50,657 nt of DNA, taken from positions 1-50,657 of the forward strand of contig JAAELY010000318.1 in the NCBI GenBank assembly GCA_024226335.1. Direction: 5' to 3'. How positions within the stretch are numbered: position 1 is the stretch's first letter; each line of letters opens with the position of its first letter. Below, in pieces: positions 14,220 through 17,593 of this stretch. A program made the translations under genes and the position numbers. The notes below the pieces were generated by a model. It ran no database searches, had not been told where the DNA came from, and worked only from the letters and a program-made list of their open reading frames with translations. The DNA is from a bacterium. Lineage in GTDB: Bacteria > Myxococcota_A > UBA9160 > SZUA-336.

Positions 14220-15632
14220 ATGATGCAGAACAAGATTGTCGAGTTCACGAACCTGTTGCGAAAGGCGGGCGTCCGCGTTTCGGTGGCGGAATCGCTCGAT
14301 GCCTTCACGGCGCTCGACGAGATGCCGCTGGAGGATCGCGAGCTGTTCAAGGACGCGTTGCGCACCACCATGGTCAAGCGCTCCGACGATATCGACACCT
14401 ACGACCGTCTCTTCGATCTGTACTGGTCGGGGTTTCACGACCAGCTCCGGGATCAGCTCTCCGATGCCATGGCCGGAATGTCCGGGGACTTCGACCCCGA
14501 AGAGCTGCTGGAGCAGCTGCGCGAGATGCTCGAGAACATGGACGTCGATCTCTCGGAACTGGCCCAGGCGCTGCTTTCGATCGATCCCAGCGCGCTCGAG
14601 CAGATGATCGGTGAGGCCGGTGAGGGCGCCGATATCCAGAACATCCGCAACATGCTGCAGATCGGCTTCTTCAGCCGGCGCATGATGGAGCAGATGAACA
14701 TGGAGTCCGCCGGGGGCGAGCTGCGCGATCTGATCGAGCAGTTGCGGGAAGAGGGCTTCCCCGAGGAGCGCCTGCAGCAGCTCGAGGAGCTTCTAGCCGC
14801 GGTCCAGGACGCCATGCGCAAGGCCGTGCGCCAGTACGCCGAGCGCGAACTCGACAAGCAGAATCACGACTATCTGGAGCGCTTCCGCAGGGAGAGCCTG
14901 GAGGAGAAGAGCTTCTACAACCTGACCGAGGAAGATCTGCGCAGGCTGCGCGAGGTGGTCAACCGCCTGGCGCAGAAGATGAAGAGCATCATCACCATGC
15001 GGCGCAAGCGTCAGAAGCGCGGCAAGTTCGACCTCAAGACGACGATGCGCAAGAACATGGCCCACGGAGGGGTGCCCTTCGAGCTGGTCTTCCGCCAGCG
15101 CAAGAAAGAGAAGCCCAAGCTGGTGGTTCTGTGTGACGTGTCGAGTTCGGTCGCGAACGTGTCCCGATTCTTCTTGCAGTTCATCTGGGGCCTACAGGAC
15201 GCCTTCACCAAGATCCGCAGCTTCGTGTTCGTGGCAGAACTCGGCGAAGTCACCCCGCTGTTCAAGGATCACGACATCTATGAAGCGATCGACATGGCGC
15301 TCGACGGCGGAGACGTGATCAATCCGTACACGCGCTCGAACTTCGGCATGGCGTTCCACGTATTCTGGAGAGACTTCCTCGCATCGGTGGACTCGCGCAC
15401 GACCGTGGTCGTGATCGGTGATGCCCGCAACAACTACAACGATCCGCGGGCCTGGTGCCTGCGCGATGTGCACAACAAGGCGAAGAACGTTCTGTGGATC
15501 AATCCCGAATCACCGGGTGCCTGGGGATTCGGGGACAGTGTCATGGACAAGTACCTGCCTTACACCGATGTTGCGGAGGAGTGTCGAAACCTCAAGCAAC
15601 TCTCGAGATTGGTGGACAAGCTCATCCTGTGA
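14220..15632 (+). CDS. VWA-domain protein, CoxE-like partner of MoxR
   Basis: The 470-residue cytoplasmic protein has an N-terminal helical region (FTNLLRKAGVRVSVAESLDAF), a Glu/Gln/Met-rich central coiled segment of about 200 residues, and a C-terminal von Willebrand A domain. The metal-ion-dependent adhesion site is intact: D306-x-S308-x-S310 in CDVSSSV, and later VVVIGDARNN. CoxE-like proteins work with MoxR ATPases; the VWA domain recruits the client and the ATPase remodels it. Adjacent ATGs at 14220 and 14223 are both possible starts. No signal peptide or membrane segment is visible. It is the last gene of the ribBA-padR-moxR-VWA group; a hairpin about 95 bases downstream could end transcription. 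Confidence 0.9.
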   Translation: MMQNKIVEFTNLLRKAGVRVSVAESLDAFTALDEMPLEDRELFKDALRTTMVKRSDDIDTYDRLFDLYWSGFHDQLRDQLSDAMAGMSGDFDPEELLEQLREMLENMDVDLSELAQALLSIDPSALEQMIGEAGEGADIQNIRNMLQIGFFSRRMMEQMNMESAGGELRDLIEQLREEGFPEERLQQLEELLAAVQDAMRKAVRQYAERELDKQNHDYLERFRRESLEEKSFYNLTEEDLRRLREVVNRLAQKMKSIITMRRKRQKRGKFDLKTTMRKNMAHGGVPFELVFRQRKKEKPKLVVLCDVSSSVANVSRFFLQFIWGLQDAFTKIRSFVFVAELGEVTPLFKDHDIYEAIDMALDGGDVINPYTRSNFGMAFHVFWRDFLASVDSRTTVVVIGDARNNYNDPRAWCLRDVHNKAKNVLWINPESPGAWGFGDSVMDKYLPYTDVAEECRNLKQLSRLVDKLIL

Positions 15633-15723: not shown

Positions 15724-15758
15724 AAAAACGGCCCCCGACTTTTCAGTCGAGGGCCGTT
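15724..15758 (-). terminator. Intrinsic terminator (minus strand)
   Basis: A 14-bp stem with one mismatch (15727-15740 with 15745-15758) and a 4-nt loop is followed, when read on the minus strand, by a run of five U. On the plus strand the same hairpin has no U-run, so it fits termination of a minus-strand transcript. It could still act weakly as the end of the VWA gene mRNA. Confidence 0.75.
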
Positions 15759-15897
15759 GATGGGTCGGAGAGGCGGTGGTGACTTGTGGGGGGTGAGAGG
15801 TTGGACATTTCAAAGCAGAAATGTCGTCTCCACCGCCTTCTCCGTAAGAATCGTTTCCTCCGGTCGGGCCTGCTCAAAGCTGCCTCACCCGACGCTG
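15724..15897 (-). ncRNA. Candidate small structured RNA, about 174 nt
   Basis: No protein gene fits here, yet the minus strand holds a complete transcription unit: a promoter at 15931-15904, a predicted start near 15897, two hairpins and an intrinsic terminator. Hairpin 1 pairs GTCGGG with CCCGAC (15888-15893 with 15863-15868). Hairpin 2 has an outer stem of 13-14 bp (15830-15843 with 15767-15779, one bulge) and a perfect inner stem of 8 bp with a 6-nt loop (15804-15811 with 15818-15825). Between the inner and outer stems lies a C-rich unpaired stretch (read CUCUCACCCCCCAC) that could pair with ribosome-binding sites. I do not recognise it as 6S, SRP, RNase P, tmRNA or a tRNA. Transcription and function are inference. 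Confidence 0.55.
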
Positions 15898-15903
15898 AAT
15901 GAC

Positions 15904-15931
15904 ATTATGCACTGGCTTTCAGGGATGTCAA
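15904..15931 (-). promoter_or_regulatory. Sigma-70-type promoter for the candidate small RNA
   Basis: Minus-strand -35 TTGACA (15931-15926, perfect) and -10 CATAAT (15909-15904, five of six) are separated by 16 nt. It is the best promoter-like sequence in this intergenic region and points away from miaB. Confidence 0.65.
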
Positions 15932-16213: not shown

Positions 16214-17593
16214 ATGCCGGGAAGATTTCACATACGGACCTTCGGTTGTCAGATGAATCAGCACGACGCTGAGAAGATGGCGAATCTGCTGCACCACGAG
16301 GGTTATGCAGCGGTCTCCTCTGTTGATGGCGCAGATGTCGTCTTGATCCACACCTGCTCCGTGCGCGACAAAGCCGAGCAGAAGCTCTATTCGGAGCTTG
16401 GATCCCTGCTGGCCCAGAAGGACGAGCGTCCTGACCTGATCGTCGGCGTGGGCGGTTGTGTGGCGCAACAGGAGGGCGGGGCGCTGCTCAAGCGCTTCCC
16501 GAAACTGGATTTCGTGTTTGGGCCCCAAAACCTGGTGCACCTCCCGTCCATGGTCGAGAGCGCCATCGCCCGCGAGCGCAGCCTGCGAGTCGACTACGAC
16601 GACGATCGCCAGGCCCGCTTCGAATTGCCGGAGCGACACCCGGAGTTTCAGGCCGGCAATTCCGGGCGGGCTTTCGTAACAGTGATGGAGGGTTGCGACC
16701 TTTTCTGCACCTATTGCATCGTACCTGCCACGCGCGGGCGCGAGGTCAGTCGCTCGAGCGAAGAGATCCTGGCCGAGGCGTCGGCGCTGGCCAATCGGGG
16801 TGTCATCGAACTCACGCTGCTCGGGCAGACCGTCAACGCCTACGGTCGCGCGCGCCCGGGTCGGGTCGATGGCGAGTTGCGCTTCGCGACGTTGATCCGG
16901 AGAGTGGCCGAAATCGCCGGTATCGAGCGCGTCCGCTTCACGAGTCCGCATCCGATCTTCATGACCGAGGATCTGATCGGCGCCTACGGCGAGGTTCCCG
17001 AACTCTGCCCGCATATCCATCTGCCCGTGCAGAGCGGATCGACGCGAGTGCTGGAGGCGATGAGTCGACGCTACTCGCGCGAAGACTATCTGCGCACGGC
17101 CGAGGCTCTGCGCACGGCCCGACCGGATCTCGCGATCAGCACCGATCTGATCGTCGGGTTTCCGGGCGAGTCCCGAAGCGAGTTCGAGGAAACGCTGAGC
17201 CTTGTGTCAGAAGTCCGTTTCGTGGATAGCTATTCCTTCAAGTACTCAGAACGTCCAGGGACACCGGCCCAGCGCCGCGGCCTCCAGTCTGTCGAGCCCG
17301 ACGAAGCTCAGGACCGGCTCGAGCGGCTTCAGGCTCTGCAAAAGCGTCTGACCCTGGAGGCTCACCAGGCGCGAGTTGGCTCACGCACCACCGTACTGGT
17401 CGACGGCGCCAGTCGGCGAGGCGGGGAACGACGACAGGGGCGCGATCCGTACAATCGCGTCGTCAACTTCACCGCCACGAGCCCAATGGTTCGCGGGGTT
17501 CTATGCGACATCGACGTCACCGCAGCCACGCCGCACTCGCTGCTCGGAGTGGCGGAAGGGGATTGCGCCAGCGGTTCACTTCCGTTGCGTTAG
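16214..17593 (+). CDS. miaB: tRNA-2-methylthio-N6-dimethylallyladenosine synthase MiaB
   Basis: This radical-SAM methylthiotransferase modifies A37 of tRNAs reading UNN codons. The 459-residue protein has the three MiaB domains. The N-terminal domain holds the auxiliary cluster cysteines (FGCQMN near C12, HTCSVRDKA, and GGCVAQ). The radical SAM core has C-x3-C-x2-C in GCDLFCTYC and LGQTVNAYG. The C-terminal TRAM domain has the RGxDPYNRVVNF-type segment. The HTCSVRDKAEQK signature separates MiaB from MtaB and RimO. It precedes the signalling cluster, whose first gene starts 113 bases beyond the miaB stop, so co-transcription is possible. Length is normal. Confidence 0.95.
   Translation: MPGRFHIRTFGCQMNQHDAEKMANLLHHEGYAAVSSVDGADVVLIHTCSVRDKAEQKLYSELGSLLAQKDERPDLIVGVGGCVAQQEGGALLKRFPKLDFVFGPQNLVHLPSMVESAIARERSLRVDYDDDRQARFELPERHPEFQAGNSGRAFVTVMEGCDLFCTYCIVPATRGREVSRSSEEILAEASALANRGVIELTLLGQTVNAYGRARPGRVDGELRFATLIRRVAEIAGIERVRFTSPHPIFMTEDLIGAYGEVPELCPHIHLPVQSGSTRVLEAMSRRYSREDYLRTAEALRTARPDLAISTDLIVGFPGESRSEFEETLSLVSEVRFVDSYSFKYSERPGTPAQRRGLQSVEPDEAQDRLERLQALQKRLTLEAHQARVGSRTTVLVDGASRRGGERRQGRDPYNRVVNFTATSPMVRGVLCDIDVTAATPHSLLGVAEGDCASGSLPLR

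Follow-up and report, generated by a model that had tools for sequence, protein, structure and literature searches.

In the minus strand of the window, by which we mean the whole 50,657-nucleotide stretch of DNA that was analysed, an earlier sequence-only reading placed an unannotated RNA gene in a gap between two protein genes. This raises the question of whether the locus encodes a genuine RNA and, if so, what that RNA does. We consider it nearly certain that the locus is a genuine, previously uncatalogued small RNA gene, and comparison across related genomes suggests that its product probably limits cell division by blocking the translation of ftsA and ftsZ.

A small RNA gene beside miaB

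The RNA gene lies in the gap that separates a VWA-domain gene (14220-15632, plus strand) from miaB (16214-17593, plus strand; TIGR01574, 463.8 bits), the latter being its divergent neighbour and lying outside the RNA. Its sigma-70-type promoter occupies positions 15904 to 15931 of the minus strand and consists of a perfect TTGACA (15931-15926), a 16-nt spacer, and CATAAT (15909-15904), just as the sequence-only reading had described, with 11 of 12 positions matching consensus. Such promoters arise by chance at a mean of 0.2 per 801 bases of shuffled sequence. The promoter is conserved in relatives: 77% of 65 distinct loci score at least 10 of 12, compared with 1.6% in shuffled sequence, and the commonest pair among these loci is TTGACA/CATAAT. 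The 14-bp terminator with five U that had been proposed was found as well. This intrinsic terminator (15724-15758, minus strand) has a 14-pair stem spanning 15758-15727 with a 4-nt loop, followed by TTTTT, and its sequence varies among aligned relatives. With the start placed from the -10 box and the end from the terminator, the predicted transcript covers 15897 to 15724 of the minus strand, which agrees with the length of about 174 nt put forward previously. An independent intergenic gene, equipped with promoter and terminator, is what would be looked for in a trans-acting antisense small RNA, and the locus has this form.

No Rfam 15 family scores above its gathering threshold in the RNA region, in keeping with the earlier remark that the RNA resembles no known family; a permissive search returned two matches there with E values of at least 4.6, which is chance level. 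6S RNA (RF00013) was considered and rejected, there being no covariance match to it in the region. A weak 6S RNA candidate of 31.1 bits, below the cut-off, lies elsewhere in the window's genome (G000:C240:45321-45527, L115).

Conserved structure and distribution

The region folds with a minimum free energy of -83.2 kcal/mol (180 nt folded), compared with a mean of -55.9 kcal/mol for shuffled sequence (z = -6.9). The aligned core reads GGAG.GGCGGUGGAU..GNCAUUUC....GAAAUGUCCAACCUCUCACCCCCCA....UCCACCGCC.CUCC and is followed by the terminator. In the window, all on the minus strand, a closing stem is formed by a 5' strand at 15827-15843 (GGAGA.GGCGGTGGAG; alignment and covariation) and a 3' strand at 15767-15783 (CCACCGCC.TCTCC; folding and covariation), and it encloses an apical hairpin, GACATTTC-TGCTTT-GAAATGTC, at 15804-15825 (folding, alignment, and covariation) together with a near-invariant segment, CCAACCTCTCACCCCCCA, at 15787-15804, which alignment and pair probabilities indicate to be single-stranded but for its first base. 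This structure supports the proposal of a large hairpin with two nested stems around a C-rich single-stranded bulge, of the type found in small RNAs that bind ribosome sites. The large hairpin had been counted as one of two stable hairpins; it shows covariation, while the first hairpin (approximately 15861-15894) is not conserved. The latter belongs to a 5' leader (15850-15897, minus strand) whose length and sequence vary between relatives, and it therefore falls outside the conserved element. A competing fold between GGUGGAGA and UCUCACC, also suggested at that stage, does not hold: in the window its pair probability peaks at 0.001, and the AGA is missing from most relatives.

The 18-nt segment, CCAACCUCUCACCCCCCA, is nearly invariant among relatives. 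Apart from its first base, it has an unpaired probability close to 1 in the window, and across 64 relatives the median is near 1 at most positions, so that the RNA displays the conserved, accessible seed that a trans-acting antisense RNA would use. Compensating changes in the stems, a check that had been set beforehand, were also found: across 72 distinct sequences, 10 of 21 pairs show two-sided changes and 97.0% of cells pair, in an alignment that was model-fitted and leans towards structure, although an earlier MAFFT alignment yielded the same helices. None of 500 shuffles matched either stem value, and sliding the partner strand out of register lowers pairing to 46-57%.

UBA9160, the window's class, is listed among the classes of Myxococcota (PMC11937823). 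Homologs were found by blastn with a 401-base query in 34 of 40 relatives, and a covariance model detected the RNA in 76 of 91 genomes of the class, always as a single copy, and in none of 288 genomes from the rest of the phylum. These genomes are mostly metagenome assemblies, and related ones are not independent; the numbers given refer to genomes, and distribution across families is a safer measure. A laxer search of the 15 genomes without a hit gave weak matches and no credible full copy. One of these genomes, G039, holds a truncated copy at a contig end, adjoining miaB; weak matches in G011 and G042 were rejected as copies, as they lie in apparent coding sequence without miaB nearby. Matches to the 18-mer occur in records titled as Deltaproteobacteria or Myxococcota metagenome-assembled genomes. 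Three further matches, in records titled as alphaproteobacteria (L044, L064, L067), fall in the apparent end helix of SRP RNA, one in sense and two in antisense orientation, and were taken as coincidence, as was one Granulicella match that appears to be coding.

Predicted pairing with ftsA and ftsZ

The complement of the whole 18-mer, with up to three mismatches, is about as common as its reversed control once the gene itself is set aside. Given this lack of enrichment, a shorter, start-codon-linked pattern was searched; several of the three-mismatch matches had ended in ATG. The pattern GGGGGTGAGAN{0,6}ATG gave approximately 113 matches in 91 genomes, compared with approximately 12 for the reversed pattern. 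In seven genomes the sites come in pairs about 1.4 kb apart, which mark the start of ftsA and then that of ftsZ. When the genes below the matches were translated and clustered, with none chosen in advance, the largest clusters were FtsZ (23 records, approximately 20 genomes) and FtsA (15), and no other family exceeded 3 in the automatic clusters, the remainder being ClpX (3), lysine-rich histone-H1-like proteins (3), and singletons. The pattern occurs in nearly all families of the class that have the RNA. The RNA is therefore predicted to be complementary to ribosome-binding sites of mRNAs encoded elsewhere, as is typical of a trans-acting antisense RNA, through the putative seed CTCTCACCCCCCA (15787-15799, minus strand), which pattern searches and pair probabilities delimit. 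Conservation extends to the segment's AACC end, which these targets do not need.

Several side observations came from the same searches. In three genomes of one genus (L251, L252, L255), clpX has CACCGGGGGGTGAGA before its start. Genes for small lysine-rich histone-H1-like proteins (L189, L191, L179, L192, L193, L204), some of them grouped by eye, have GGGGGTGAGA before their starts in the window's family and one other, and are possible targets. The FtsZ proteins of the class (e.g. L215, L198, L426:9940) carry about 35-97 extra N-terminal residues ahead of the conserved core in most families; the window's family, like other classes, has about 13. In G012, GGGGGTGAGAGATG is repeated 65-80 bases from several contig ends and probably belongs to a multicopy mobile element.

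For comparison with control genes, gene starts were picked in the same way for targets and controls, under a simple rule that gives preference to good Shine-Dalgarno matches. Within the class, 53 of 60 ftsA genes and 79 of 84 ftsZ genes (132 of 144 together) have GGGGG in the ribosome-binding site. The motif occurs in 1 of 12 ftsA and 0 of 22 ftsZ genes from the phylum's other classes and, among the other genes examined in the class (MiaB, VWA, MoxR, RibBA, and IMPDH), in 9 of 295. For GGAGG the preference is reversed (4 of 144 versus 56 of 295), and this avoidance at ftsA and ftsZ does not fit selection for ribosome binding alone. Median duplex energies with the RNA are -21.1 and -21.6 kcal/mol for class ftsA and ftsZ, -10.9 and -8.2 kcal/mol for those of other classes, and -8.6 to -12.2 kcal/mol for the five other class genes. 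A control pattern for GGAGGTGAGA (GGAGGTGAGAN{0,6}ATG) gave 63 matches, with ftsA or ftsZ in none of the 31 examined. Among 290 genes from simple gene calls on 360 kb of one genome (G016), ftsA (-30.3 kcal/mol) and ftsZ (-29.5 kcal/mol) rank first and second, the median being -10.5 kcal/mol.

The clearest sites in ftsA and ftsZ read UGGGGGGUGAGAG-AUG, and about 40% of the class sites keep the G-run and lack the UGA. Part of the enrichment of targets arises because GGGGGUGA partly resembles an extended Shine-Dalgarno sequence. Since the seed is near-invariant, it offers no variation in which covariation between RNA and mRNA could appear. The RNA was not found in two genomes that have sites, namely G042 (family f11, 89% complete), in which the ftsA and ftsZ sites are present, and G011 (family f2, 99% complete), in which they are partial.

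In the window's own genome, ftsA (start G000:C488:43614) is preceded by AGGGGGGACUGAGCUAUG / AGGGGGGACUGAGCU and ftsZ (start C488:44939) by UUGGGGGGGAUUCCAUG / UUGGGGGGGAUUCC, and the predicted duplexes are -20.0 and -16.9 kcal/mol, respectively. Both sites carry GGGGGG, and the predicted pairing of about 7-10 bp is shorter than in other families. Here ftsZ is no outlier: among the 19 genes predicted in a 20-kb stretch it comes fourth, with murC and two doubtful open reading frames ranked above it. In murC (L426:5578), eight consecutive G precede the start, and the pairing score is as high. Given the shorter pairing and the murC score, the mechanism is best supported for the class and less so for this particular genome.

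Taken at the level of the class, we think it likely that the RNA is an Hfq-independent, trans-acting antisense RNA that represses translation of ftsA and ftsZ. Computation supports the gene, its structure, its class-wide conservation, its fixed locus, the absence of Hfq, and the match to the sites. On this model, the strong sigma-70-type promoter would drive an RNA ended by its own terminator, in which the long conserved stem and small apical hairpin would hold out the 18-nt C-rich segment. At ftsA and ftsZ, this segment would pair with the G-rich ribosome-binding site and cover the Shine-Dalgarno sequence, so that synthesis of FtsA and FtsZ would drop together. We infer expression of the RNA, pairing in the cell, repression as its outcome, and any growth or stress signal. 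An Hfq homolog was not detected in any of the 91 class genomes, in a search whose controls behaved as expected, and its absence fits a stable, structured, GC-rich seed. On balance we also favour the broader proposal that the RNA is a class-wide, dedicated translational brake on both genes that works without Hfq, a core division regulator and not an accessory stress RNA, whose target sites would have been held as near-perfect complements of an invariant loop.

Alternative explanations and known systems

A divergent form of 6S RNA, SRP RNA, or another known housekeeping RNA would account for a single copy per genome, a strong promoter, and a length of about 130-175 nt. This is very improbable given that no Rfam family reaches its gathering score and the two permissive matches have E values of 4.6 and above, that the 31.1-bit 6S candidate sits elsewhere in the same genome, and that the RNA folds into a single short hairpin bearing an asymmetric 3' loop. 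The constant position beside miaB could instead mark a cis-acting leader of a neighbouring gene. However, the RNA is divergent from miaB in every informative locus among the class genomes, with 230-590 bases between the loop and the miaB match, so that transcription runs away from miaB and stops at the RNA's own terminator. On the other flank, usually VWA-MoxR-ribBA, the downstream VWA gene is opposite in direction, and 1-6 kb of other DNA often intervenes, which makes a leader scarcely credible.

Two further explanations concern what the RNA recognizes. It might be an antisense RNA with broad G-rich ribosome-binding-site targets, of which ftsA and ftsZ are the most visible, and with a wider role such as slowing growth. 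In its favour, the same site precedes clpX in one genus (three genomes) and histone-H1-like genes in several genomes belonging to the window's family and one other, and murC in the window's genome has a G-run. In the unbiased search, however, ftsA and ftsZ are the only gene families to recur in different families of the class, and we judge this account unlikely. There is also a slim chance that the invariant segment of a structured RNA binds a protein or another conserved RNA, the match to ftsA and ftsZ being an unusual Shine-Dalgarno preference. All 18 nt are near-invariant, beyond the 13 nt used for ftsA and ftsZ, and the overlap of GGGGGUGA with an extended Shine-Dalgarno sequence points the same way. 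Such a preference is at odds with the avoidance at these genes of the stronger GGAGG, which is common elsewhere in the class, with the failure of the GGAGG control pattern to turn up any ftsA or ftsZ, and with the absence of the G-run from the phylum's other classes, where the RNA is missing.

The preferred reading, translational repression of ftsA and ftsZ, has partial likenesses among known RNAs. StfZ of Escherichia coli is an antisense RNA acting on ftsZ mRNA, but it is cis-antisense from the ftsA-ftsZ region itself (PMC9628754), whereas the present RNA is encoded elsewhere. Pxr of Myxococcus xanthus is a small RNA regulator in Myxococcota that controls development (PMC10217877); the present RNA went undetected in the 288 genomes of the phylum outside its class. 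DicF, from the E. coli prophage Qin, is a 53-nt, Hfq-binding RNA processed from a longer transcript. It pairs with the ftsZ ribosome-binding site, represses translation, and inhibits division (PMC5069750), as is predicted for the present RNA. DicF is prophage-encoded and pairs via its 3' region, whereas the present RNA is core chromosomal, presents a C-rich bulge on a long stem, has its own promoter and terminator in a class without Hfq, and has predicted sites in both ftsA and ftsZ. DinR of Klebsiella pneumoniae likewise occupies the ftsZ ribosome-binding site and represses translation, as predicted for the present RNA, but is processed from the dinI 3' end, LexA-controlled, and Hfq-dependent (PMC10907235); its pairing stretch is Klebsiella-specific, and its locus is unrelated to that of the present RNA. 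In the Rfam search, the comparison that bears on homology to DicF or DinR, the RNA had no match above chance level, and the Hfq partner of the DicF/DinR type is absent from 91 of 91 class genomes. EcpR1 of Sinorhizobium meliloti is trans-encoded and Hfq-independent and represses cell-cycle mRNAs through a conserved GC-rich loop, but its targets are dnaA and gcrA, and its class, loop, and locus are different (PMC4414408).

EcpR1 is a precedent for an Hfq-independent, loop-based small RNA of the cell cycle; repression at the ftsZ site has its precedents in DicF and DinR. The RNA described here defines a new family for annotation. It also makes RNA-based control of division, and the long-term conservation of a seed together with its mRNA sites, open to direct test. 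In the literature searched, the small RNAs that target ftsZ come from enterobacteria, and the two that act in trans either depend on Hfq or bind it. The present RNA is core chromosomal and restricted to one uncultured, Hfq-less class, and its invariant loop apparently ties it to two division-ring genes across many genera.
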